Notes under the pieces: generated by a model
Database searches by the model: none
What the model was told of the DNA's origin: nothing
The model's input: the letters and a program-made list of their open reading frames with translations, nothing else
From: a virus
IMG/VR virus record: IMGVR_UViG_3300046804_003239
Span: 1-32,084 of that record
Direction: 5' to 3' (one strand)
Length of the DNA: 32,084 nucleotides
Position numbers and translations under genes: made by a program
Shown here: piece by piece, positions 6,091 to 29,307 of the stretch
Position numbering within the stretch: the stretch's first letter is position 1
Layout of the letters: every line of letters starts with the position of its first letter

Positions 6091-9000
6091 ATGCCACAAA
6101 ACACTAATCTCAATATATTTCCTTATTTTGATGATTTTGATGTCACTAAAAACTTTTATAAAGTTCTTTTTAAACCGGGATATCCAGTACAAGCAAGAGA
6201 ATTAACTACAATACAATCAATATTACAAAATCAAATAGAACAATTTGGATCACACTTTTTTAGAGATGGATCTGTAGTTATTCCGGGAGCAGCTAGTTAT
6301 AATAATGAAATATTTGCAATTAGACTGCAAAATGAATTTAATGGGGTTGATGTTTTTTCTTATATTCCATACCTTGTGGGAACGTCAATATCAGGTAAAA
6401 ACAGTGGAGTTAGAGCTCACATTGTAGCGGCTATTCCATATACAGTGTCAGAAAAAGAAAGTACAACTTTATATGTAACTTTTTTAGATTCGGATTATAA
6501 AACTTCTTCATATGCTTCATTTATTAATGGAGAAGAATTATTAGTTGAAACAGAAATTTCCGGTGTCCCTAGTTTTTCAGATCTAAACTCGTCAATATCA
6601 ATTGGATTTGGAGAATCTTTTGCTAAGGTTGAGACATTGGATTCTACGTATAATGCATCTGTCGCATCTTTGAAGTCTGGTGTTTTTTATATTAGAGGAA
6701 CTTTTGTAAATGTATATGAAGATTTCATTGTTTTGGGGCAATATTCTAATAAACCAAGTTATAAAGTAGGTCTTAGAATATTAGAAGATATAGTGACTGG
6801 ATATGAAGACGATTCTTTAAATGATAATGCCCAAGGATTTTCAAATTATTCTGCTCCCGGAGCAGATAGATTTTCTATAAAAACGTATTTGGATAAGATT
6901 CCTCTAGATGAAGACCAAACCGAAGATTTTATTGAACTTTTTAGGGTAAGAGATGGAGTTTTAATATCAACAACAAATGATCCGCAATATAATGTATTTT
7001 TAGATCAAATAGCAAGAAGAACATACGATACCAATGGTGATTTTTATGTGAATCCACCAAATATAAAGGTAAGAGATACTCTAAATGATTTTTTTGGAAA
7101 TAATGGAATTTTTTCAAAAAATCAAATAACTTATAATAATAACGTAGCGTCGGAAAGTCTAGCAACATATCAAATATCTCCATTAAAAGCATATATCAAA
7201 GGATACGAAGTAACTACAATCAGTCCTACATTTTTAGATTTTGATAAGCCCAGGACAGTAAAAACTTTATTGAATCAAGAACTAATTTATAGTACTGGGT
7301 CTACATTTAGATTAAACAGAGTAACTGGATCACCTAGAATTGGATTATCTACATCATATACCTTAAGTCTAAGAGATTCTAGAGTTGGACTAAATTCAGT
7401 TACTTCTTCAGGAAATGAAATCGGTATTTCTAGGGTTTATGACTTTTCATTAGAATCTGGTTCCTACGATACAGTATATCCAAATATAAACGAATGGGAT
7501 ATTTCTTTATATGATATACAACTTTATACCAATATAACATTAAATAAGAGTTTAGATTCTGATATTCTTTACAATATTCCGTGCCAAGTTAAAGGAAGAT
7601 CCAGTGGAGCGATTGGTTATCTGAAGGATGATGCTAGAAATTCTTCAGAGATTGTAATTTACAATACAAAAGGAAACTTTATAGTCGGTGAAAAGTTAAT
7701 CTTCAATGGTATTGAAAATACAAGAGTTTCTGTTGCAGTCACTCAACACACTATAGATGAAGTTAAATCTTTGTTTGGGAATGTTGGAACTGCATTTACC
7801 TTTAATGCTGACGTTAAACAATATCCTTCAATAAATGTCGGTTTAGTCAATATTAGTGCAAAAAGCACAAGTGGAGTATCTACAGTAACTGCATCTGATT
7901 TTAATTTTAGTGGTAAAGCAAAAGTTGGCGGTTTAGTATCATATACAGTGTCTGGTCTATCTACAGCAACTTATGCAAAAATTCAAGCAGTAGCAACAAA
8001 TTCACTTACGATAGTTGGAGTTACTACTGTGATTGGGGTTTGTGATGGTGCTTTACCTTCATCAATAATTAATCCAAGTGATTTCAAAATTCTTTCATCA
8101 AATTTACAAAAATCATTATCAAATACTCTTTACACAAACTTACCTAAAAAATCTGTTGCAAATGTAGATTTAACATCTTCTAATTTAATAATCAAAAAAG
8201 AGTATGATATTAATATCATTTCAAATTCTACTGGAGCAATTCAATCTGGATCGGATCTGACATTTTTACCTTTTGACGAAGAGCGATATGTATTAACAAC
8301 TTCATCCGGACAAAATGAAGTTTTAACTGAAGACAAATTTGTTTTTGGTTCTGGAGGAGAGACACTAACGATTAATGGACTTTCTACTAATAGTTCTTCC
8401 GGATGTAAATTAATCGCAACCTTAAGAAAAACGAATGTAAAATCAAAAGTCAAATTAAAAAATAGTATTGGTACTTTAGTTATTAATAAATCAAAATATG
8501 TTGGATCTGGTATTGGCGAAACAACATTTAATGATGGATTATTATATGGAAACTATCCATATGGAACTCGCGTTCAAGACGAAGATATTTGTTTACTTAA
8601 ACCAGAAGTAATAAATGTTTTTGGTGTTTTTGAATCAAGAACAACATCAGATCCGGTTCTTCCTAATATTACATTTGGATCTTTAAATAGTGCATCTGGA
8701 ACTATCGAAGATTTAATACTAGGAGAAGAAATAATAGGCAATCAAAGTTCTGCTATTGCAATTTGTGTAGGAAAGATTAATAGTTCAACAATTAATATTG
8801 TTTATAAGAACTCAAATACTTTTCTTGATGGAGAAACAGTAACTTTTACAGAATCTGGAATTATCGGATCTATTTCTGAGATTGGAATTGGTGATATTGA
8901 TATCACCAATAATTTTACTTTAGAAAAAGGTCAGAATAATACAACAATAGATTATTGCAAACTAGTAAGAAAATCCAAATTTAAAGAACCATCAAAAAAA

Positions 9001-11523
9001 ATAAAAGTTATTTATGAATTTGCTACATTCTCCGATTCTGATTCCGGTGATATTACAACAATTAATTCCTATGAACAATTTGATTATTGTAATTTAGAAA
9101 GAGTTAACAATACCAGTGTTTCTGATATTATTGATATAAGACCAAGAGTTTCTGATTATTCAGTGTCTGAGAATGTAAGATCTCCATTTGAATTTTTGGG
9201 AAGAACTTTTAATGAGCAACAAAACTCCGCAAAAAATATTTTAGCATCAGATGAATCTTTTATATTAAATTATTCAATATATCTTCCAAGAATTGATAAG
9301 ATCTTTTTGTCAAAAAATGGTGTATTTCAACTTATTAAAGGAGATCCTGCAGAATATCCACGTCCACCTTTGGGAGTTAGTGATTCAATAGAACTAGCTA
9401 CAATATATCTTTCGCCATATCTTTGCAAGGTTTCGGATGCAAGTCTAAGATTGACTGATCATAAAAGATATACGATGTTTGACATAAGAAAACTTGAAAA
9501 AAGAATTGAAAATTTAGAGTATTACAATTCTTTATCTTTGATCGAATCCGGGATATCTAGTCTACAAATAAAAGATTCCAATGGATTAGATAGAACTAAA
9601 TTAGGAATTTATGTTGATGATTTTTCTTCATCAACGACACAAACAAAAATTACAAACATAAAAAATAGCTTTGATCCGAAAATTTTAGAACTAAGACCAA
9701 CACATTATACAACTTCTGTTGATTTGTTATTGGGTTACTCCTCAACGATTTCTAGTCAATCTGGATTGGATAAAACACTCGATTTGCAATACTCTTCAGA
9801 TTTTGTTGGGTCTGGAATTAAAAAAACCGGAAGATCTTTAAGTTTAGACTATAGTGAAGTTTTAGAAATACAACAACCATATTCAACTAGAATAGTAAAT
9901 GTTGCTCCTTTCAGAGTTTCTTTTTATAGTGGAAAAATAAAATTTATACCATCATCTGATATTTGGATTGACGCTATTAGAATGGATTCAAATTTAATAT
10001 CTGTTGATGGAAACATTACTAGAACAAATGTTCAATTAAGTGCAAGCGAATTTGATTCACAATCAGGATTCTCTCCGATAACTTGGGGTTCTTGGTCAAC
10101 ACAATGGACAGGCGATAAAATAGAATATAATAGTGAAATAGTAAACCGTGACAGTGGTAGATATCAAGACATATATCAAACTACAATTAGAAACGGGGTT
10201 TCCTCGCGGACTGCAACTAGAGAAGTATATAAAGAAGTAATAGAAAATAAATCAATCGGTGATAAAATTGTTAGTAGTGCTGTAATTCCTTACATGAGAT
10301 CTAGGAATATAGAATTTTCGGCCACAAAATTAAAACCGTTAACAAGATTATATGCATTTTTTGATGGAATTGATATGAAAAAGTATACAATTCCAAAGTT
10401 ACTGGAAATTCAAATGACATCTGGGATATTTCAAGTTGGCGAGACTGTAACTGGTATTGTTTCCGGTACTACACAGTTTTCATTTAGAGTTGCCAAACAA
10501 AATCACAAATATGGACCATATAATTTGCCAACAGATGTATATAACTTAAATCCATATGCAAGAGAACAAATAATCCCAGAAAATTACTCAACAACATCAA
10601 AAATATTGAATATTGATACTTTTAGTTTGGCAAATAAAGTCCAAGGTGGATTTGAAGGGTATGTAGCACAAGGAATGATTTTAAGAGGACAAATATCTGG
10701 TGCAGAAGCAAAGATTTCTGATGTTAGGTTAATAACCGATAATGTCGGAACTTTGATAGGGTCCCTCTTTATCCCAAATCCAAATGGATCTACAGATCCG
10801 TCATTTACCGTTGGGAATAAATTAATGAGATTAACTAGTAGTGAAACAAATTCTCAAGTTGAAGGAATAGTTTCTACTTCCGCAGAAGGTTCATTTTTTG
10901 CCGAAGGAACTACCAATACTGTTCAGGAAAATATTCTTGTTGTTAAGAATATTGTATATGAGACTCAAACAAAGATTGAAACAAAAGCAGAATCTTCTAC
11001 GGATTCGGCAACTATTGTTGCAAGTGTTTTAATTGGAGATAACGAACCAATACCAACACCAACACCAACACCAACGGAAACACCAACACCAACACCAACA
11101 CCAACGGAAACACCAACGGAAACACCAACACCAACGGAAACACCAAAAACATATATTCTAAACATAAATTACGCAAAAGAAAAATTTGGCTCATTTGCTA
11201 AGGCAGAAATAAAAACTCTTGCTAAATCATTTGGAATTTCTAATAAAGAAATTAAAGAAGCAGATACTAAAAAAGAACAAATAAGTCTTATAAAAAAAAT
11301 AGAATCCGTATCACAAACAACACCAACTCCGGTTGATATTAACTATAAATCAGTTGGTAAAATGGTGAATAATATTCCTTTAGTAAAACAAACTGCAACT
11401 GTTACCACACAAATAGCAAAATCTGCAGGTGTTTCGGTTCCAAAAAGAATTGAATCAAAAGTTACATCATCTCAGATTCATACAAATAAAAAAAATGATG
11501 ATAAAAAAAATAAAAAAAAGTGA
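6091..11523 (+). CDS. DUF4815-family virion structural protein with Pro-Thr repeat C-terminus
   Basis: The N-terminus ('FPYFDDFDVTKNFYKVLFKP', then 'GYPVQARELTTIQSILQNQI' and 'FFRDGSVVIPGA') is characteristic of DUF4815, a family of large tail/baseplate-associated proteins of marine T4-like phages with no established molecular role. The 1810 residues include several beta modules, for example 'GVSTVTASDFNFSG' (about base 7875) and repeated 'GE-x-V-x-G' units (about 7680, 8720-8880, 10440). The end differs from the family pattern: after a 'LTSSETNSQVEGIVSTSAEG' segment (about 10837) comes a Pro-Thr-Glu repeat (residues 1655-1685), a short helical region (about 1690-1740) and a lysine-rich tail. 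In related proteins, as I recall them, a 'DPLAQSF' domain continues here; in this genome it is the separate next gene. Confidence 0.85.
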   Translation: MPQNTNLNIFPYFDDFDVTKNFYKVLFKPGYPVQARELTTIQSILQNQIEQFGSHFFRDGSVVIPGAASYNNEIFAIRLQNEFNGVDVFSYIPYLVGTSISGKNSGVRAHIVAAIPYTVSEKESTTLYVTFLDSDYKTSSYASFINGEELLVETEISGVPSFSDLNSSISIGFGESFAKVETLDSTYNASVASLKSGVFYIRGTFVNVYEDFIVLGQYSNKPSYKVGLRILEDIVTGYEDDSLNDNAQGFSNYSAPGADRFSIKTYLDKIPLDEDQTEDFIELFRVRDGVLISTTNDPQYNVFLDQIARRTYDTNGDFYVNPPNIKVRDTLNDFFGNNGIFSKNQITYNNNVASESLATYQISPLKAYIKGYEVTTISPTFLDFDKPRTVKTLLNQELIYSTGSTFRLNRVTGSPRIGLSTSYTLSLRDSRVGLNSVTSSGNEIGISRVYDFSLESGSYDTVYPNINEWDISLYDIQLYTNITLNKSLDSDILYNIPCQVKGRSSGAIGYLKDDARNSSEIVIYNTKGNFIVGEKLIFNGIENTRVSVAVTQHTIDEVKSLFGNVGTAFTFNADVKQYPSINVGLVNISAKSTSGVSTVTASDFNFSGKAKVGGLVSYTVSGLSTATYAKIQAVATNSLTIVGVTTVIGVCDGALPSSIINPSDFKILSSNLQKSLSNTLYTNLPKKSVANVDLTSSNLIIKKEYDINIISNSTGAIQSGSDLTFLPFDEERYVLTTSSGQNEVLTEDKFVFGSGGETLTINGLSTNSSSGCKLIATLRKTNVKSKVKLKNSIGTLVINKSKYVGSGIGETTFNDGLLYGNYPYGTRVQDEDICLLKPEVINVFGVFESRTTSDPVLPNITFGSLNSASGTIEDLILGEEIIGNQSSAIAICVGKINSSTINIVYKNSNTFLDGETVTFTESGIIGSISEIGIGDIDITNNFTLEKGQNNTTIDYCKLVRKSKFKEPSKKIKVIYEFATFSDSDSGDITTINSYEQFDYCNLERVNNTSVSDIIDIRPRVSDYSVSENVRSPFEFLGRTFNEQQNSAKNILASDESFILNYSIYLPRIDKIFLSKNGVFQLIKGDPAEYPRPPLGVSDSIELATIYLSPYLCKVSDASLRLTDHKRYTMFDIRKLEKRIENLEYYNSLSLIESGISSLQIKDSNGLDRTKLGIYVDDFSSSTTQTKITNIKNSFDPKILELRPTHYTTSVDLLLGYSSTISSQSGLDKTLDLQYSSDFVGSGIKKTGRSLSLDYSEVLEIQQPYSTRIVNVAPFRVSFYSGKIKFIPSSDIWIDAIRMDSNLISVDGNITRTNVQLSASEFDSQSGFSPITWGSWSTQWTGDKIEYNSEIVNRDSGRYQDIYQTTIRNGVSSRTATREVYKEVIENKSIGDKIVSSAVIPYMRSRNIEFSATKLKPLTRLYAFFDGIDMKKYTIPKLLEIQMTSGIFQVGETVTGIVSGTTQFSFRVAKQNHKYGPYNLPTDVYNLNPYAREQIIPENYSTTSKILNIDTFSLANKVQGGFEGYVAQGMILRGQISGAEAKISDVRLITDNVGTLIGSLFIPNPNGSTDPSFTVGNKLMRLTSSETNSQVEGIVSTSAEGSFFAEGTTNTVQENILVVKNIVYETQTKIETKAESSTDSATIVASVLIGDNEPIPTPTPTPTETPTPTPTPTETPTETPTPTETPKTYILNINYAKEKFGSFAKAEIKTLAKSFGISNKEIKEADTKKEQISLIKKIESVSQTTPTPVDINYKSVGKMVNNIPLVKQTATVTTQIAKSAGVSVPKRIESKVTSSQIHTNKKNDDKKNKKK
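11053..11145 (+). repeat. Six-base tandem repeat coding for a Pro-Thr / Glu-Thr-Pro linker
   Basis: Units of ccaaca and ccaacggaaaca alternate without interruption and are read as PT and PTETP. Because the units are multiples of three bases, changes in copy number would lengthen or shorten the linker without breaking the frame. The repeat joins the beta-rich body of the DUF4815 protein to a helical C-terminal segment. Confidence 0.9.
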
Positions 11524-15107: not shown

Positions 15108-16511
15108 ATGCTAAATCCATTTTTTCTAAACGGATCAAGACCAGAACAAAGTCTAATACAAGACTTAATCAATGAACAACTAAGAATGTATGGTATTGAA
15201 GTTCATTATCTTCCAAGACAGTACATCACAGAAAAAACGGTTATAAAAGAAGTTATAGAATCTGCATTTACTAATGCTTATCCAATAGAAGCATATGTAA
15301 ATACTTATGAGGGATATTCTGACAATCCGACCATACTATCAAAATTTGGAATACAAGCACTTAATGATATAACTATAACTATTTCTAGAGAAAGATTTAA
15401 AACCTATATTTCGCCACTAATTGAAGAACAGTCAGATATTAAGTTATCTACAAGACCAAAAGAAGGTGATTTGATATATTTTCCGTTAGGTGATCGTTTA
15501 TTTGAAATAAAATATGTTGAGCACGAAAAACCCTTCTATCAACTTCAAGGATTGTATACCTATGAATTAAGATGCGAATTGTTTAGGTATGAGGATGAGG
15601 TTATTAACACTAGTATTGAAGATATTGATGATAATATAAACGGAACTGATAATAATTCTATTGCAATCGGTAATCTACAAAAACTTATAATGGTTGGTGT
15701 TGGAGTTACTGCGACTGCGATTGCTAGCATTGTGAATGGTGGAGTTAGATCCATAACAGTAACTAACCGAGGTGGAGGATATACTAGTATTCCTACCGTT
15801 GGAATTTCTTCCGCACCTTCTAATGGAAAGACTGCGAGTGCAATTCCTCAGATGATAAGTGGAATAGTTGTATGTAATGATAATACAAACCCAAATGCAA
15901 AGTCAGTCCAAAGTATTCAAGTAGTAAATGCCGGATATGGATATACATCCATACCCAGTGTAAGAATTTATGGTGGTGGAGGAAATGGAGCAACCGCAAC
16001 AGCAACTATTGGTGATGGAATAGTCGGTATAATAAGTGTCACTAACTTAGGATCTGGATATACAAATCCACCTGCAATTATTTTTAGTGGAATTTCTTCA
16101 GTGTCTGCGGCCGCAACTGCTGTGATATCAGAATCGGGAGGAATATCTCAAATATACATTACAAATGCTGGTTTAGGGTATACCGAGTCTCCATCAATTC
16201 AAATTGGGAGTCCTTCATTAAATTCATCAGGAAACTTTATTTTCAATGAAATTGTTGTTGGATCTCAGAGCGGAGTTAGTGCAAGAGTGAAGTATTGGAA
16301 TTCTATTTCAAATGTACTTGAAGTTTCTCAGGTAAATGGTAATTTTATTCCAGGAGAAAATATTGTGGGATCCGCATCAAGCGCATCTCATTATCTAAGA
16401 TATATTGATACATATTTTGTTGAAGATGGATATTCTTCAAATGATGTTATAGAAGAAGAAGCGGATAAAATTATAGATTTCAGTGAAAATAATCCTTTTG
16501 GTATGCCTTGA
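15108..16511 (+). CDS. 14: Neck protein gp14 with large repeat insert
   Basis: gp14 is the partner of gp13 in the neck. Residues 1-190 ('MLNPFFLNGSRPEQSLIQDL', 'YGIEVHYLPRQYITEKT', 'EAYVNTYEGY', 'GDLIYFPLGDRLFEIKYVEH') and the end ('EEEADKIIDFSENNPFGMP') match the normal family, whose T4 member has about 256 residues. Here the protein has 467 because about 225 residues (205-430) are inserted. The insert holds four G-x-G-Y beta repeats (near 217-226, 272-280, 310-319, 350-359) and a 'FNEIVVGSQSGVSARVKYW' module (about 379-425). The frame is intact across the insert, so the repeats are presumably displayed from the neck. ATG start 6 bases after the gp13 stop. Confidence 0.9.
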   Translation: MLNPFFLNGSRPEQSLIQDLINEQLRMYGIEVHYLPRQYITEKTVIKEVIESAFTNAYPIEAYVNTYEGYSDNPTILSKFGIQALNDITITISRERFKTYISPLIEEQSDIKLSTRPKEGDLIYFPLGDRLFEIKYVEHEKPFYQLQGLYTYELRCELFRYEDEVINTSIEDIDDNINGTDNNSIAIGNLQKLIMVGVGVTATAIASIVNGGVRSITVTNRGGGYTSIPTVGISSAPSNGKTASAIPQMISGIVVCNDNTNPNAKSVQSIQVVNAGYGYTSIPSVRIYGGGGNGATATATIGDGIVGIISVTNLGSGYTNPPAIIFSGISSVSAAATAVISESGGISQIYITNAGLGYTESPSIQIGSPSLNSSGNFIFNEIVVGSQSGVSARVKYWNSISNVLEVSQVNGNFIPGENIVGSASSASHYLRYIDTYFVEDGYSSNDVIEEEADKIIDFSENNPFGMP

Positions 16512-16566: not shown

Positions 16567-17568
16567 ATGTTTGAATATTTTTATAACGAAATTTTAAGAA
16601 AAACTGTAGTTGCTTTTGGATCTTTATTTAATAATATAAGTATAAAACATACTAATAATTCCGGTGAAGTAACAAGTATTATCAAGGTTCCATTGGCATA
16701 TGGACCAACACAGAAATTTCTTGCAAGACTTCAACAGTCTCCAGATTTAAGTAAACCAGTTCAGATAACATTACCTAGAATGTCATTTGAATTTACCGGT
16801 CTAACTTATGATTCCACTAGAAAATCAACAACAACACAAACTTTTACTTCAAAATCCGCAGAAGATGGAACTGAAATAAGAAAAACATACTTACCAGTTC
16901 CATACAATATGCAGTTTGAACTGAGTATTATGGCAAAATTAAATGATGACGCTCTTCAAATAGTAGAACAAATTTTACCATATTTTCAACCAGCATATAC
17001 AATGACGGTTGAGATGGTTGATTCTATTAATGAAAAAAGAGATATCCCAGTAGTTCTTGAAAATATAACTATGCAAGATGACTACGAGGGTGATTTCAGT
17101 ACAAGAAGAGTTCTTATTTATACTTTAAGATTTACGGCAAAAACATATTTATTTGGTCCTACCGCAAGTGCATCAAAAGATATTATCAAAAAAACATCAA
17201 TTGGTTTTATTGCTGGAGATACTATTACTTCTCCTACAAGAGAGGTTGTTTATTCAGTAGAACCAAGAGCAATCAAAAACTACACTGGTACTATTTTAAC
17301 AAATCTTTCTAAAGATATTTCCGCCGAAGAGGTTTTACTACCAGTTAATGATGCATCTTCCATTTCTATTAATACTTATCTCGAAATTGAGGGAGAAGAG
17401 GTATTTGTAAAATCAAAATCAGGAAATATTTTAACTGTTGATAGAGGAAGAGACAATACTACTATCACTTCTCACCTTTCAGGTGCTCAAGTTAAATCAA
17501 TAACTGCTGCGGATAATGTATTGATTGAAGATGGAGATGATTTTGGTTTTAGTGGTTCTATATTATGA
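16567..17568 (+). CDS. 15: Tail completion / sheath stabiliser gp15
   Basis: gp15 caps the sheath and tube and forms the tail side of the head-tail junction. The N-terminus 'MFEYFYNEILRKTVVAFGSL' followed by 'FNNISIKHTN' and the internal 'KTYLPVPYNMQFELSIMAKL' and 'NDDALQIVEQILPYFQP' are typical. T4 gp15 has 272 residues; this one has 333, because residues about 245-320 form an extra module ('YLEIEGEEVFVKSKSGNILT' then 'VDRGRDNTTITSHLSGAQV') that also occurs in two baseplate-region genes of this window. The ATG is preceded by an exact late promoter core. Its TGA overlaps the next ATG (ATGA), coupling it to gp16. Confidence 0.92.
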   Translation: MFEYFYNEILRKTVVAFGSLFNNISIKHTNNSGEVTSIIKVPLAYGPTQKFLARLQQSPDLSKPVQITLPRMSFEFTGLTYDSTRKSTTTQTFTSKSAEDGTEIRKTYLPVPYNMQFELSIMAKLNDDALQIVEQILPYFQPAYTMTVEMVDSINEKRDIPVVLENITMQDDYEGDFSTRRVLIYTLRFTAKTYLFGPTASASKDIIKKTSIGFIAGDTITSPTREVVYSVEPRAIKNYTGTILTNLSKDISAEEVLLPVNDASSISINTYLEIEGEEVFVKSKSGNILTVDRGRDNTTITSHLSGAQVKSITAADNVLIEDGDDFGFSGSIL

Positions 17569-17996
17569 AAATGTCAAAAAAGTTTGATGGATTAAATGAT
17601 ACTTTCAACGTTGATGGAGAAATAGTCTCAATTGAAAAAGAATCAATTCAAGAAAAAATAGAAGTAATTGCATCAACTGCAAATGATATTGAAAAAGATT
17701 ATGACTATGCAAGAGGAAATTTATATTCTCTAGTAGAAAAGGGACAAGAGGCAATTAATGGAATACTTGAGTTAGCTCAAGAAAGTGAAATGCCAAGAGC
17801 ATATGAAGTTGCTGGCCAATTGATTAAAAATACAAGCGAAATAGCAGAAAAACTTATGGCACTTCATAAAATTAGAAAAGATGTCGAAGAGGAAAAGGCA
17901 AAAGGACCAACTACAGTTAATAATGCTTTATTTGTAGGGTCAACTGCAGAACTAGCAAAACTTTTAAAACAACAATCCCAAGACAACATAGAATAA
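17565..17996 (+). CDS. 16: Small terminase subunit gp16
   Basis: The small terminase recognises concatemeric DNA and regulates the gp17 motor. The family core is clear: 'DYDYARGNLYSLVEKGQEAI' and 'NGILELAQESEMPRAYEVAG' and 'QLIKNTSEIAEKLMALHKI', a largely helical segment suited to ring formation. At 143 residues it is slightly shorter than T4 gp16 (164). Two starts are possible: ATG 17565, overlapping the gp15 stop as ATGA, or ATG 17571 (MSKKFDG); I prefer the overlapping one because ATGA and TAATG couplings recur here. Unlike T4, where gp17 follows at once, a 577-residue gene separates the two terminase genes. Confidence 0.9.
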   Translation: MKMSKKFDGLNDTFNVDGEIVSIEKESIQEKIEVIASTANDIEKDYDYARGNLYSLVEKGQEAINGILELAQESEMPRAYEVAGQLIKNTSEIAEKLMALHKIRKDVEEEKAKGPTTVNNALFVGSTAELAKLLKQQSQDNIE

Positions 17997-18002: not shown

Positions 18003-18023
18003 GATAAAAGTCAATTCATATTG

Positions 18024-19757
18024 ATGCCCAAAATTAAGTCGCATAAAACAGTTGAGCAAATTGCAAAGAAGCATCTTCTTGATGTTTCTTTCATACAAAA
18101 GCAACTTGACATGGGCGAACCTATTGAACATGAGCACACTAAAGACCACGAACTTGCCCGTGATATTGCTTTACAGCATCTTGACGAAATTCCAGATTAT
18201 TATACTCGCCTGAAAAAAATGGAAGCAGATGCTAAAAAGCATCATAAAAAGTTTAAAGATATTAAAGAAGGAAATCTACATAAATGGTATCAAAGTAAAT
18301 CGAAAGAAGGAAAACCGGGTTGGGTCAATGTAGTAACTGGTGGCACATGTGCAAGTGATGAATCAGGTGAAGGTGTCCCCAAATGTGTTTCTTCTGAAAA
18401 GAGAGCAAGTATGACTAAAGCACAAAGACTTTCTGCAGCAAGAAGAAAAAAAGCAGCAGATCCGGGTCAGCAGCAAAAAACAGGAGCTGCAAAACCAACA
18501 TATGTTTCTACAGATAAACCAAAAGAGAAAATGAAAGAAGAAATGGATGTACAAGAGGCAAAAGATAAAAAAGGCAAAGGTAGTGGCACCAAAGATGCTT
18601 GCTATCATAAAGTAAAATCACGTTATGATGTTTGGCCAAGCGCATATGCATCTGGAGCACTAGTCAAGTGTCGCAAAGTTGGCGCAGCAAATTGGGGATC
18701 CAAATCCGAAGCAGTAGAAGAGCAAAGATATTGTCCATTGTGTGATAAAAGAGAGACAAGATCTGAGTGTTCTTATGGTGGCAAAGCATGGGACAAAGTT
18801 TCCATCAAAGACCATGAATATTCAATGGCAAGATCCGAATTAAAAACCATTGTTGATGCAGTAAAAAGATTGCAGATGAAAGTTGGTAAGGGTGAAGGAG
18901 ATTTGGAAGCATGGGTACAATCAAAAATTACAAAAGCAGCAGATTACATTGATACCGCAGCAGATTATGTTGCTAGTGGTGAAATGGAGGAGCAAAAGTT
19001 AGTTGATAAAATTGTGGATGAGATGAAGTGCTGGCCTGAATATAAAAAGAAAGGTACTCAAAAGTTATTTGGAAAAACTTATAATCGTTGCGTAAAAGCA
19101 GAAGACGTAACTATTGAAGATGCCGATGGAAATACTTTTGCTGAGATTGTTGATCTGATTAAACCAGAACCTATTAAAGGATTTAAATCTCAAATAGAAG
19201 AAGCAACAAGACTTCAAGCACAAACTGGAAACGTAGTTGCAGTTACTCTTTCTTGGAGAGGAAAATATTATGGAATGAAAATGTTTTTCCCCCAAGTTAA
19301 GACTCCGACAAAAAAAGAGATTAATGATGAACTTCAAAAAGTTTATCCCGGATCCGTAGTTTTATATCATACTATTTCAGAAATTAAACCAGGTCAACCA
19401 CTCATTCAGGTATTTGGACCACAAGGAGGAAGTTTTGGAAACCCAGGTCCAAGTAAAAATTATGTGAAGACCATGGGAGAAGAAGTTAATATCGATGAGG
19501 ATTGGCAATCGGTAAATAGAAAAGATAGAACTGCAGGATTAAGTCAAAAAGCAGTAAATGCTTATCGTAGAGAAAATCCAGGTTCAAAACTTCAAACCGC
19601 AGTTACAGAAAAGAATCCAGAAGGTAAAAGAGCAAAAAGACGTGCATCTTTTTGCCGTAGGATGAAAGGTATGAAGTCTAAACTAACTTCAGCAAAAACT
19701 GCAAGAGATCCAGATAGCAATATCAACAAAGCACTTCGTCGTTGGAACTGTAATTAA
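18024..19757 (+). CDS. Multidomain Lys/Cys-rich protein between terminase genes; candidate head-internal protein
   Basis: The 577-residue product is a chain of small domains. Residues 1-70 ('MGEPIEHEHTKDHELARDIA', 'LDEIPDYYTRLKKMEADAKK') resemble DUF5661. Then come basic segments with paired cysteines: 109/121; 193/216 ('ACYHKVKSRYDVWPSAYASG'); a CPLC cluster at 237-249; a helical segment 264-320 ('EAWVQSKITKAADYIDTAAD'); 336/356 ('CWPEYKKKGTQ'); a beta domain 400-455 ('WRGKYYGMKM', 'LQKVYPGSVV'); and a C-terminal basic domain 488-577 ('AYRRENPGSK', 'KALRRWNCN'). The 400-455 domain recurs in the gene at 26421. No catalytic motif is recognised. High lysine, acidic linkers with [I/L]-x-E sites and the late-gene position suggest a protein packaged in the head and cut by gp21; that is inference. 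I start it at ATG 18024 rather than the TTG at 18021. Confidence 0.7.
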   Translation: MPKIKSHKTVEQIAKKHLLDVSFIQKQLDMGEPIEHEHTKDHELARDIALQHLDEIPDYYTRLKKMEADAKKHHKKFKDIKEGNLHKWYQSKSKEGKPGWVNVVTGGTCASDESGEGVPKCVSSEKRASMTKAQRLSAARRKKAADPGQQQKTGAAKPTYVSTDKPKEKMKEEMDVQEAKDKKGKGSGTKDACYHKVKSRYDVWPSAYASGALVKCRKVGAANWGSKSEAVEEQRYCPLCDKRETRSECSYGGKAWDKVSIKDHEYSMARSELKTIVDAVKRLQMKVGKGEGDLEAWVQSKITKAADYIDTAADYVASGEMEEQKLVDKIVDEMKCWPEYKKKGTQKLFGKTYNRCVKAEDVTIEDADGNTFAEIVDLIKPEPIKGFKSQIEEATRLQAQTGNVVAVTLSWRGKYYGMKMFFPQVKTPTKKEINDELQKVYPGSVVLYHTISEIKPGQPLIQVFGPQGGSFGNPGPSKNYVKTMGEEVNIDEDWQSVNRKDRTAGLSQKAVNAYRRENPGSKLQTAVTEKNPEGKRAKRRASFCRRMKGMKSKLTSAKTARDPDSNINKALRRWNCN

Positions 19758-19773
19758 TAGATAGGTTTTTATT

Positions 19774-21420
19774 ATGTCAAATGATGTTTATCTTGGTAAT
19801 CCGCTTCTAAAAAAAGCAAATACTCCTATTGAGTTTACTCAGGAACAAATTCTTGAGTTTGTTAAGTGTAAAGATGATCCGGTTTATTTTGCAAATAATT
19901 ATGTAAAAATTGTTACTCTGGATCATGGTCTTCAAACATTTAAACCATATCATTTCCAAGAGAAGTTAATCAATAACTTTCATAATCACAGATTTAATAT
20001 CTGCAAGATGCCCCGACAGACTGGTAAATCAACCACTGTGGTGTCCTTCCTGCTTCACTATGCCGTCTTTAACGATAATGTTAATATAGGCATCCTAGCA
20101 AACAAAGCAGCGACAGCCAGAGAGCTCCTAGATAGGTTACAGACCGCTTATGAAAACTTACCAAAATGGATGCAACAAGGTATCATATCCTGGAATAAAG
20201 GTTCTCTTGAACTTGAAAATGGAAGTAAGATCTTGGCTGCTTCTACTTCTGCTTCTGCAGTTCGTGGTATGTCATTCAATATTCTATTTTTGGACGAATT
20301 TGCGTTCGTTCCTAATCACATTGCAGATTCATTTTTTGCATCAGTATATCCAACAATTACTTCAGGTAAACAAACCAAAGTAATCATAGTTTCAACTCCG
20401 CACGGTATGAATCATTTCTACCGCATGTGGCATGATGCTGAAAAGGGTAAAAATGAATATGTATTTACGGATGTTCATTGGAGTGAAGTTCCCGGAAGAG
20501 ATGATGAATGGAAAAAGCAAACAATCGCTAACACTTCTGAACAGCAATTCAAAGTTGAGTTTGAATGTGAGTTCTTAGGATCTGTAGATACTTTGATTGC
20601 TCCATCTAAACTTAGATCTCTTGTATACGACCACCCAAAGAAAAGTAGTGGTGGATTGGATGTATATGAAAACCCTACAGAGAATCACGATTATTTAATT
20701 TCAGTTGATGTTGCTAGAGGTGTTGGAAATGATTATTCTGCATTCACTATAGTTGATATAACCACATTTCCCCACCAAGTGGTAGCAAAGTATAGAAACA
20801 ATGAAATTAAACCAATGCTTTTTCCTAGCATTATTGTGGATGTGGCAAAAAACTACAATAACGCATACATCTTATGCGAAGTTAATGATGTTGGAGACCA
20901 GGTGGCATCGATAATTCATTATGATTTGGAATATACTAATCTTCTTATGTGTTCTATGAGAGGAAGAGCAGGTCAAATAGTTGGGCAGGGGTTTTCTGGA
21001 AAAAAAACCCAACTTGGAGTTAAGATGTCAAAAACTGTGAAAAAGGTAGGGTGTCTTAATCTAAAAACTATGATTGAAGAGAATAAACTTCTCTTCAAAG
21101 ATTATGATATTATGAGTGAGTTAACTACATTTATTCAAAAACATAATTCATTTGAAGCAGAAGAAGGTTGTAATGACGATTTAGCGATGTGTTTGGTTAT
21201 ATATGCTTGGTTGGTTGCTCAAGATTATTTTAAAGAACTGACAGATCAAGATGTTAGAAAAAGACTTTATGAAGAGCAAAAAAATCAAATAGACCAAGAT
21301 ATGGCACCATTTGGGTTTATATCCGATGGGTTAGATGATGCAAGTTTTATAGATAAAGATGGGGATAGATGGTTTACGGATGAGTATGGGGATATGTCTT
21401 ATATGTGGGAATATCATTAA
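19774..21420 (+). CDS. 17: Large terminase subunit gp17 (ATPase and nuclease)
   Basis: gp17 is the packaging motor that docks on the portal gp20, hydrolyses ATP to move DNA into the head and cuts the concatemer. Motifs in order: Walker A 'MPRQTGKSTT' (residues 79-88, lysine 85), Walker B 'ILFLDEFAF' (170-178, D174 E175), coupling motif 'VSTPHG' (206-211), then the RNase H-like nuclease with D312 in 'ISVDVARG', E369 in 'LCEVNDVGD' and D468/D469 in 'CNDDLAM'. All key residues of both activities are present. The 548-residue length is close to the family (T4 610). It follows the multidomain gene by 16 bases and its TAA overlaps the next ATG. Confidence 0.97.
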   Translation: MSNDVYLGNPLLKKANTPIEFTQEQILEFVKCKDDPVYFANNYVKIVTLDHGLQTFKPYHFQEKLINNFHNHRFNICKMPRQTGKSTTVVSFLLHYAVFNDNVNIGILANKAATARELLDRLQTAYENLPKWMQQGIISWNKGSLELENGSKILAASTSASAVRGMSFNILFLDEFAFVPNHIADSFFASVYPTITSGKQTKVIIVSTPHGMNHFYRMWHDAEKGKNEYVFTDVHWSEVPGRDDEWKKQTIANTSEQQFKVEFECEFLGSVDTLIAPSKLRSLVYDHPKKSSGGLDVYENPTENHDYLISVDVARGVGNDYSAFTIVDITTFPHQVVAKYRNNEIKPMLFPSIIVDVAKNYNNAYILCEVNDVGDQVASIIHYDLEYTNLLMCSMRGRAGQIVGQGFSGKKTQLGVKMSKTVKKVGCLNLKTMIEENKLLFKDYDIMSELTTFIQKHNSFEAEEGCNDDLAMCLVIYAWLVAQDYFKELTDQDVRKRLYEEQKNQIDQDMAPFGFISDGLDDASFIDKDGDRWFTDEYGDMSYMWEYH

Positions 21421-26262: not shown

Positions 26263-26424
26263 ATGGATGATCTTTTAGATATGATTGCTGCTGACGAATC
26301 ACCTTCGCAGATTAGTGATAAGATTAAAGAACTTCTTTTTACAAAGTCTGCAGAAAAAATTGATGAGTTTCGTCCAGCAGTAGCAGTCTCAATGTTCAAT
26401 AGCGAAACCGAAGAGGAAGAATGA
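26263..26424 (+). CDS. 67: Prohead core protein, gp67-like
   Basis: This 53-residue gene begins 'MDDLLDMIAADESPSQISDK', continues 'IKELLFTKSAEKIDEFRPAV' and ends in a run of acids ('SETEEEE'). T4 gp67, also just after gp20, has the same plan: a short helical 'I-x-x-L-F...A...I...I-A' region followed by a strongly acidic tail, and it is a prohead core component degraded by gp21 during maturation. The N-terminus matches the short core proteins of cyanophages as I know them. It has its own GAAAGG site and an exact late promoter core upstream; its TGA overlaps the next ATG (ATGA). Identification rests on position and composition because so little sequence is available. Confidence 0.75.
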   Translation: MDDLLDMIAADESPSQISDKIKELLFTKSAEKIDEFRPAVAVSMFNSETEEEE

Positions 26425-26741
26425 AATCATTCAAACAATTCATCTCAGAATCAGTAAATATTTCTGGAGATTTTAACGGAAATCTTTACATTAATTCTTC
26501 CCAACTAGAACCACAACAAGTTGGCGAAGAATATGTTGCAGATGTTTTGTGGAATGGAAGTCTTTATAGAATGGAACTTGTATCAAATAATGGAGTTCCA
26601 TCAAAACAATCTTTAGGTGAACAGTTACAGACAGAATATCCAGGAGCAATTGTTCACCAAATTTATCCAGTGATGGAAAAAAATATTAATATTAAAAATA
26701 CGCAAAGATATCACCCATCAAAGTTGGAATGGATTGATTGA
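26421..26741 (+). CDS. Small protein with T4-like capsid-targeting N-terminus; candidate head-internal protein
   Basis: The 106-residue product starts MKSFKQFISES. T4 internal proteins start with a capsid-targeting peptide, MKTYQEFIAE, cut by gp21 after the glutamate of an I/L-x-E site; the resemblance (MK-[ST]-[FY]-x-x-F-I-x-E followed by a small residue) is close, so cleavage after Glu10 is predicted. The rest is a compact beta domain with 'VADVLWNGSLYRMELV' and 'LGEQLQTEYPGAIVHQIYPV', which recurs in the multidomain protein at 18024 ('LSWRGKYYGMKM', 'LQKVYPGSVVLYH'). It overlaps the gp67-like gene by ATGA, in the slot where T4 has core gene 68, so a core-component role is the main alternative. 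Function after packaging is unknown. Confidence 0.6.
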   Translation: MKSFKQFISESVNISGDFNGNLYINSSQLEPQQVGEEYVADVLWNGSLYRMELVSNNGVPSKQSLGEQLQTEYPGAIVHQIYPVMEKNINIKNTQRYHPSKLEWID

Positions 26742-28102: not shown

Positions 28103-28657
28103 ATGGCTCATAGACCAGTTGGTGCTGGATCTTCATTTGCATTTTCTGCAGGTGCTGCATCCACATCCTCAGCATTTTCAGTTCAATCTAATGTACTAAG
28201 GGTGGTTGCCGTTGGTGCAGCTGCTCACGTTGCTATTAGTACCGGATCAGCAGCAGCGGTAACAGATTATTATGTCCCATCAGGTCAATCGGTAACTCTT
28301 GGTCTTACCAAAGCTTCCAATAGAGTAGTTGGAATTACAACAGGAACAACTACAACAGTAATAGTACCAGAGGGAACACAAGTTCCATTCGGTGTTGGTG
28401 ACTTTGTTTCTATATCAGCAACTGGTCAACCATATTATGATATTTCTCACGCAGCAGTTCTTTCTGTTGATACCACAACAAATTTCAATGGGTATCATCA
28501 AACGAGAATGGTGATTGATTATAACTCATCAGGAATCTCAACTGCTTTTGCTGCTTCATATGCGGATGTGAAACTATCGCAAAAAATCTCCGCATATGGT
28601 GCTGGTGGCGCAGGAGTTCTTTATTATCAACAAGTACAAATCACAGGTCAAGCATAA
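28103..28657 (+). CDS. Ala/Gly-rich probable head structural protein
   Basis: The 184-residue product starts 'MAHRPVGAGSSFAFSAGAAS' and is dominated by Ala, Gly, Ser, Thr and Val. A central 'HVAISTGSAAAVTDYYVPSG' and 'TTVIVPEGTQVPFGVGDFVS' suggest a small beta domain. No signal peptide, transmembrane segment or catalytic motif is seen. Placed just before the prohead protease, with a TAATG overlap coupling the two genes, it is most likely part of the head, perhaps a decoration protein. I do not recognise a characterised family. A late-promoter-like motif precedes it. Confidence 0.6.
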   Translation: MAHRPVGAGSSFAFSAGAASTSSAFSVQSNVLRVVAVGAAAHVAISTGSAAAVTDYYVPSGQSVTLGLTKASNRVVGITTGTTTTVIVPEGTQVPFGVGDFVSISATGQPYYDISHAAVLSVDTTTNFNGYHQTRMVIDYNSSGISTAFAASYADVKLSQKISAYGAGGAGVLYYQQVQITGQA

Positions 28658-29307
28658 TGAAACTTATTACCGAAGAAATCGAATCAGTAGAAGTTCTTAC
28701 CGAAACGGTCAACGGTAAGAAGACTCTTTATATTCAAGGACCTTTTTTACAAACTGAAGTCGTTAACCGTAACGGCAGAATGTATCGTATGCCGGTCATG
28801 GAAAGAGAGGTGAAGCGTTATACTGAGCAGTATGTTAACAAAGGTCGTGCTCTTGGGGAACTTGGACACCCCGATGGTCCAACTGTAAATCTTGACCGCG
28901 TTTCCCATAAAATTGTTTCACTTCATCGTGAAGGAAATAATTTTATCGGTAAGGCACAAATTCTCTCAACCCCAATGGGCAAAATTGCAGAGTCTCTTCT
29001 TAAGGAAGGAGTAACCCTTGGCGTTTCTTCTCGTGGTATTGGATCTGTAAGACAGAATACAGAAGGATACTCAGAAGTTGGTGAAGATTTTATGCTAGCA
29101 ACTGCTGCAGATATTGTTGCTGATCCTTCTGCTCCCGATGCTTTTGTTCAGGGGATTATGGAAGGTAAAGAGTGGATTTGGGATGGTGGTATCCTAAGAG
29201 AAAAAGCAGCAGAGAACGCTAAACGTAGTATAAATACACTAGTTGATCAAAGTATTCTTGAAGAATACAAGTTATCATTATTTAATGAGTTCTTAAACTC
29301 ATTGTAA
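28657..29307 (+). CDS. 21: Prohead core protease gp21
   Basis: gp21 is the serine protease that is activated in the finished prohead and cuts the scaffold, core proteins and gp23 at I/L-x-E sites. Family signs: 'GPFLQTEVVNRNGRMYRMPV' (28-47), 'RALGELGHPDGPTVNLDRVS' (64-83) carrying the probable catalytic His71, and 'EGVTLGVSSRGIGSV' (117-131) with the catalytic serine (124 or 125). The N-terminus contains 'LITEE', a possible self-cleavage site. Length 216 is close to T4 gp21 (212). Its ATG overlaps the previous stop (TAATG). Targets in this window would include gp22, gp23, the gp67-like peptide and probably the protein at 26421. Confidence 0.95.
   Translation: MKLITEEIESVEVLTETVNGKKTLYIQGPFLQTEVVNRNGRMYRMPVMEREVKRYTEQYVNKGRALGELGHPDGPTVNLDRVSHKIVSLHREGNNFIGKAQILSTPMGKIAESLLKEGVTLGVSSRGIGSVRQNTEGYSEVGEDFMLATAADIVADPSAPDAFVQGIMEGKEWIWDGGILREKAAENAKRSINTLVDQSILEEYKLSLFNEFLNSL

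Follow-up and report, generated by a model that had tools for sequence, protein, structure and literature searches.

The window analysed here, a 32-kb virus contig (32,084 nucleotides; IMG/VR record IMGVR_UViG_3300046804_003239), has a T4-type gene order: gp13-gp14-gp15-gp16-chain gene-gp17-endonuclease VII-gp18-gp19-gp20-phrog_1742-phrog_1645-phrog_682-gp21-gp22-gp23, in which gp17-gp20 and gp23 were named from gene order and sequence rather than by profile search. The nearest cultured phages are cyanomyoviruses, with Synechococcus phage S-SRM01 as the top match. The chain gene, flanked by gp16 (17565-17996) and gp17 (19774-21420), is present as the first-pass annotation had described it, with 577 codons opening at an ATG (an alternative TTG lies at 18021) and a product of pI 9.4.

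The chain protein matches phrog_727 (1.2e-92) and phrog_3477 (9e-84), both annotated as of unknown function, and 515 phage records match its family. Syn9 gp114 and S-SCSM1_29 belong to the same direct family (phrog_727/phrog_3477/DUF6321), whose cyanomyovirus members have so far been described only as "unknown" or structural. In the literature that we searched, we found no description of the module grammar, junctions or mini-gene counterparts reported below, and nothing beyond annotation on these domains in phages. The position of the gene alone is not new, since the gp16-gp17 interval of cyanomyoviruses was identified as a hot spot in earlier work (PMC3037559). The P-SSM2 relative lies between gp15 and gp16.

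Table 1. Modules, junctions and head-related genes discussed in the text. Positions are those of the window; a slash follows the junction glutamate.
Feature	Residues	Positions	Strand	Remarks
Whole chain ORF with stop, modular virion-associated protein	1-577	18024..19757	+	phrog_727 family
Module U1, DUF5661	1-78	18024..18257	+	Pfam match; standalone in Cr30; inside VPs20 protease
Module U2, DUF5872-like, Cys 109/121	82-146	18267..18461	+	hhalign to CRP-7 gp63 family
Module U3, CYHK unit, Cys 193/216	186-230	18579..18713	+	hhalign to CRP-7 gp64 family
Module U4, CxxC unit, Cys 237/240/249	232-262	18717..18809	+	Module profile, shuffled positions
Module U5, helical EYSMARSEL unit	263-322	18810..18989	+	Module profile; also in other phages
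Module U6, Cys 336/356	326-360	18999..19103	+	Module profile, junction counts
Module U8, beta-beta-alpha-beta unit	396-476	19209..19451	+	Paralogous to window gene 26421-26741
Module U9, DUF6321, Cys 544/576	486-577	19479..19754	+	Pfam; hhalign to CRP-7 gp65 family
Junction DIKE/GNLHKW before U2	80-82	18261..18269	+	E82 in 48/48 relatives
Junction DVQE/AKDK before U3	176-178	18549..18557	+	E178 in 43/48
Possible junction AVEE/QRYC before U4	231-233	18714..18722	+	Hydrophobic P3 unconserved in close relatives
Junction IVDE/MKCW before U6	331-333	19014..19022	+	E333 in 37/48
Junction QIEE/ATRL before U8	391-393	19194..19202	+	E393 in 48/48
Junction NIDE/DWQS before U9 core	490-492	19491..19499	+	E492 in 48/48
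phrog_1742 gene beside portal gp20, T4-type capsid-targeting-like leader and U8-type domain		26421..26741	+	
Leader MKSFKQFISE of phrog_1742 gene		26421..26450	+	Compare T4 IPII/IPIII MKTYQEFIAE
gp21-type prohead protease (Peptidase_S77), candidate processing enzyme		28657..29307	+	

The chain can be divided into eight modules (Table 1). The DUF5661-like N-terminus proposed earlier was found above the Pfam cut-off (aa 11-67, E 6e-13, 49.4 bits against 27), as was a second domain that had gone unnamed, DUF6321 (aa 500-574, E 2e-13, 51.1 bits against 28.5). U2 gives no direct Pfam match to DUF5872 in the window protein; the CRP-7 gp63 protein scores 27.3 bits against this domain, just under the 27.5 cut-off. 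Eleven cysteines are present, each kept in 47-48 of 48 relatives, and they sit where they had been reported, except that the one given as 543 is C544. With the module limits used here, U9, U8, U2 and U3 are the most basic parts (pI 9.6-10.4); U5 and the linker 361-395 are acidic.

Profiles of the eight units were searched across more than 400 loci and returned 212 multi-unit proteins, 96 of them non-redundant. Among these 96 relatives we observed 32 module architectures, so that the earlier estimate of at least six separable segments proved too low. U9 occupies the last place in 94 of 96, and U3, U4, U5 and U6 swap positions. The modules are truly independent. U5 also occurs in Flavobacterium phage immuto_191 and in S-B64 gp085. 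Many phrog_727 relatives (e.g., L002:5809-7362) carry an extra N-terminal cysteine-rich unit (CPAGQYYCYTDKKCKPIPKG) in place of DUF5661.

Structure prediction, which had been suggested as a check for each unit, gave confident modules separated by low-confidence linkers. AlphaFold2 performed poorly with 48 close relatives (pLDDT 48) and reached 62 with 99 diverse ones, with block means in the latter run of 78-87 for U2, up to 87 for U4, up to 80 for U6, 90-95 for U8 and 73-82 for U9; the low-confidence linkers are 73-80, 166-189, 300-334, 369-396 and 465-506. No solved structure matched the chain protein in sequence up to E 10, and comparison with predicted viral structures mostly brought back sequence relatives. 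The fold comparison in effect covered U8 alone, whose likeness to T7 Gp2, YkzG and phi29 p6 (Z of about 5 or less) may reflect a common small fold, and we gave it no evidence value.

Each of U2, U3, U8, U9 and DUF5661 is also found elsewhere as a gene of its own, which supports the separable units of the first-pass annotation. The clearest case is Roseobacter phage CRP-7, where three consecutive mini-genes, gp65-gp64-gp63 (84, 47 and 80 aa), lie immediately upstream of TerL. In hhalign comparisons, U9 pairs with the gp65 family (95.1%, 3e-8), U3 with the gp64 family (99.7%, 1e-25) and U2 with the gp63 family (96.8%, 2.5e-10), while every off-diagonal pairing stays at or below 10%. CRP-7 thus shares U9, U3 and U2, as well as proximity to the terminase, with the window; however, its units are three separate genes with neither junction motif nor leader, whereas the window has one chain. 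The same trio of mini-genes is found in three further contigs (L207, L226 and L249). As a gene of 70 aa, DUF5661 stands by itself in Caulobacter phage Cr30, and in Vibrio phage VPs20 it lies within the head maturation protease; DUF6321 stands alone in Pelagibacter phage HTVC033P, and in podovirus P-SCSP1l a solo U9 (DUF6321) gene lies between the capsid and adaptor genes. Two portal proteins (Phage_portal_3; L188:633-2726 and L190:2638-4686) end in U3-like and DUF5872 units.

Around solo U9 genes in 80 contigs, the most frequent neighbours are portal genes in 21 contigs, terminase clusters in 11, 11 and 9, major head protein clusters in 10 and 8 and scaffold in 8, all of these being raw counts. 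Some solo units adjoin amidase genes. Taken with the portal and protease fusions, these associations with head genes, observed here, support the link to the head that the first-pass annotation had drawn. We considered whether solo U9 of the P-SCSP1 type could be an ordered capsid component and found no support for this, as P-SCSP1u, a close relative of P-SCSP1l, has no decoration protein. A scan of bacterial genomes gave 13 matches, all but one titled MAGs and several resembling phage contigs, and among these 13 no independent cellular role for the modules was found.

The first-pass annotation had also pointed to I/L-x-E triplets as sites of the kind that gp21 cuts. The three triplets it quoted do exist, yet their role as strict gp21 sites fails on both frequency and conservation. 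The chain protein contains 5 [IL]xE, against 4.0 ± 1.7 expected by shuffling, and the mean z of the chain family is −0.31, compared with 3.5, 3.7 and 1.45 for gp21, gp22 and gp23 of the same phages. Among relatives, IEE 391 is conserved in 38%, ISE 451 in 12% and IDE 490 in 46%, whereas many [IL]xE sites of gp21 and gp22 are conserved above 90% and LME 57 of gp23 in 100%. Conserved E columns with a conserved I/L at −2 number 1 in the chain family, within DUF5661, against 2.1 expected; the corresponding figures are 11 against 2.2 in gp22 and 6 against 1.3 in gp21. From shuffling and from the conservation comparison with gp21 and gp22 we conclude that the chain does not follow the strict T4 cut rule, and our initial reading was that processing is unsupported.

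That reading was revised after a module-by-module analysis of the junctions. A relaxed motif, [VILMF]-x-E, occurs within 14 residues ahead of the module core in 32/41 cases for U2, 35/43 for U3, 10/13 for U4, 61/64 for U6, 15/16 for U8 and 47/57 for U9, approximately 2-3 times the shuffled expectation. The control spacings [VILMF]E, [VILMF]xxE and E-x-[VILMF] are mostly near expectation, with the exception of [VILMF]xxE, which reaches about twice the expectation at U2 and shows a smaller excess at U3. The glutamate nearest a module has V, I, L, M or F at −2 in 69% of cases (n = 227), against 31% of other linker glutamates (n = 2729), while hydrophobic residues are rarer at −1 (4% against 21%) and at +1 (7% against 27%). 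The p-value for the −2 enrichment, 5e-29, is inflated by relatedness, as are all p-values here. Linkers also show a weaker enrichment of unrelated patterns, e.g., E-x-hydrophobic.

Within their linkers, E82, E393 and E492 are the most conserved positions, unlike E178 and E333. The junction is independent of the preceding module; U6, for example, carries it in 33/33 cases after U3, 13/13 after U5 and 11/12 at the N-terminus. U5 shows no clear fit to the rule. The main junctions lie in or beside the low-confidence AlphaFold2 linkers, and the residues that follow the glutamate are mostly small or charged. Two of the three triplets singled out originally, IEE 391-393 and IDE 490-492, are in fact hydrophobic-x-E junctions; the third, ISE 451-453, falls where a module predicted to be folded ends. 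Judged by its sequence, the chain thus has the relaxed gp21-like substrate pattern, in which flexible linkers carry hydrophobic-x-E where domains meet. Solo modules of the CRP-7-like set, which is mostly non-T4-type, have the motif in 0/89 (0/82 for U9, 0/4 for U3 and 0/3 for U2), a control that is weaker than this fraction implies because their N-termini are short.

The third-last position of the junctions (P3) is V in 61, I in 49, L in 47, M in 33 and F in 19 (n = 209). Elsewhere in these phages this position is stricter: phrog_1742 leaders have L, I or M only, and gp22 and gp23 sites have I or L. Cutting at all six junctions would give pieces of 82, 96, 55, 100, 60, 99 and 85 aa, and the predicted U2, U3, U8 and U9 pieces (96, 55, 99 and 85 aa) resemble the solo proteins in size (80, 47, 96 and 84 aa), those of U3, U8 and U9 more closely. 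The U9 piece, if cut, would have a pI of 11.2.

A second line of evidence comes from capsid-targeting leaders. According to the T4 record, IPII and IPIII begin with MKTYQEFIAE, and in IPIII residues 4 and 7 direct targeting while residues 8 and 10 direct processing (PMC9026906). The phrog_1742 gene of the window has the N-terminus MKSFKQFISESVN, and on these sequence features we propose it as a candidate internal head protein of cyanophages. It lies in the gene interval in which T4 carries gp67 and gp68. The leader pattern MKx[FY]xx[FY][ILM]xE was found in 64 ORFs of the fetched loci, mostly phrog_1742 proteins, against 0 expected by shuffling. At the N-terminus of the chain protein itself (MPKIKSHKTVEQIAKK; relatives are similar), no such leader, with aromatic residues in positions 4 and 7 and I/L-x-E in positions 8-10, is present.

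Single modules, on the other hand, follow directly behind leaders. U9 is preceded by MKTFKQYITE in S-SZBM1_192 and elsewhere by MKTFKEFQE/GAAW, U3 by MKTFNTFFE/GKKDACY, U6 by MKTFAEFQAE/CWKTHKK and U4 by MKSFKQLRIDITE/AAEKRYCPGC. Since these leaders abut the modules directly, the leader end coincides with the place of the junction in the chain. One leader has V at P3 (MKTFKQFVIE/ATPF, L159) and an apparently homologous one has M (MKTFQQFMAE/AAPF, L138); this pair, although anecdotal, suggests that these phages may have a relaxed P3. In about 60 loci besides L010, L020 and L066, a 51-aa gene (MKTFKQFQEDWSNKYKKSIDCSNPKGFSQRAHCAGRKK...) that has MKTFKQFQE as its leader and a cysteine pair of its own lies directly upstream of the chain gene, onto which it runs by a TAATG/TGATG stop-start overlap. 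A leader-type gene directly precedes the chain gene in 61 of 167 multi-unit loci. The 51-aa gene is absent upstream of the chain gene in the window, and S-SRM01 has a comparable cysteine-pair unit, without a leader, joined in frame to the N-terminus of its chain.

Presence in virions, an expectation of the first-pass annotation, has support from published data on relatives. S-SCSM1_29 is annotated as a virion protein, and the virion proteome of S-SCSM1 was measured (PMC9602691). S-CREM2 ORF137 was identified in purified virions by 4 unique peptides at 4.1% coverage (PMC10665884, Table 3); its gene lies between gp16 and gp17 and its product ends in U8-U9. These two proteomes indicate presence in virions, not location or cutting. 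S-SZBM1_192, in which U9 follows a leader, is absent from the 30 proteins listed as detected for S-SZBM1 (PMC9146016).

It is well supported that we are dealing with a modular, virion-associated, head-linked protein family, and head-internal modular cargo is our best reading of it. The chain would consist of small folded beads, mostly basic and in several cases bearing a conserved cysteine pair, separated by disordered linkers and carried in the virion, most likely within the head alongside the DNA. Phages have such beads as mini-genes of their own among the head and packaging genes, singly behind a capsid-targeting leader or, as in the window, joined into a shuffled concatemer; the hydrophobic-x-E junction would be a relaxed gp21-type cut site at which they are freed during head maturation. 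To this explanation as a whole, a head-internal bead string released at relaxed gp21-type sites, we assign a probability of roughly 0.5. We infer the location inside the head from the leaders on homologous modules and from the portal and protease fusions; contact with DNA and cutting are likewise inferred, cutting with the least certainty. Whether the chain is actually cut stands at about even odds, because V, M or F often occupies P3 of the junctions and because the chain has no leader. More tentatively still, and at somewhat less than an even chance, the chain may be a polyprotein: T4-like marine phages would concatenate and reshuffle mini-proteins, and the prohead protease would free six or seven peptides per chain in fixed stoichiometry. 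Of the original proposal of several packaged peptides from one precursor, the separable units and the head link thus stand, but cutting at I/L-x-E as written does not.

T4 offers two points of comparison. IPI, IPII and IPIII are small proteins packaged with DNA, and MKTYQEFIAE of IPII and IPIII resembles the phrog_1742 leader and those of single modules; however, the T4 proteins are single and have one leader each, whereas the window chain is leaderless and has eight modules, junction motifs and cysteine pairs. The T4 core proteins gp22, gp67 and gp68 undergo several gp21 cuts inside the head, and some fragments are retained (PMC9026906). Those fragments are scaffold leftovers, while the putative fragments of the window chain would be complete modules that are genes elsewhere, and the window junctions tolerate V, M and F, unlike the T4 sites.

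Alternatively, a head-internal bead string may remain a single chain, with hydrophobic-x-E serving to dock it onto the gp22 core or persisting as a remnant of fused leader-bead genes. A P3 relaxed to V, M and F, a strict gp21 motif that is not conserved and the lack of a leader on the chain would all agree with this. Nevertheless, a conserved P1-like glutamate before six unrelated modules in disordered linkers suits a protease better, as do leaders that end at the same point as the junctions, and we consider an uncut chain rather unlikely. It is improbable that the protein is a DNA-packaging accessory that works with the terminase, e.g., by binding DNA, and is merely trapped in virions in small amounts. 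The gene position between gp16 and gp17, solo units immediately upstream of TerL in CRP-7 and L207 and the few peptides in S-CREM2 are what such an accessory would predict; however, other solo units adjoin portal, major head or amidase genes, the P-SSM2 gene is upstream of gp16, and phrog_1742 proteins, like some U9 proteins, carry head-targeting leaders. A structural repeat protein of the tail or the particle exterior, the main alternative named by the first-pass annotation, is very improbable, for although virion detection by itself gives no location and RN05-S has tail-fibre genes in the gp16-gp17 interval, no convincing tail or fibre family match was found in Pfam or PHROGs, the modules are linked to genes for portal, protease, capsid and terminase and to targeting leaders, and P-SCSP1u, the relative of the phage with solo U9, lacks a capsid decoration protein.

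Members of the chain family abound in marine T4-like cyanophages. Should its beads prove to be head cargo, DUF6321, DUF5872 and DUF5661 could be assigned a shared role in phage heads, and the T4 capsid-targeting leader would be seen to serve another set of cargo in cyanophages. A chain that is cut would, as far as we know, be the first case of a combinatorial precursor for phage head cargo. The junctions define exact N-termini to seek in existing mass-spectrometry data on cyanophage virions.

Finally, two other proteins of the window deserve mention. gp14 (15108-16511) contains a glycine/serine-rich insertion of GGGYTSIP-like repeats, which matches repeat segments in families of baseplate and fibre proteins, and a structural protein of 1810 aa (6091-11523) ends in a lysine-rich tail preceded by a TPTPTPTETPT linker.
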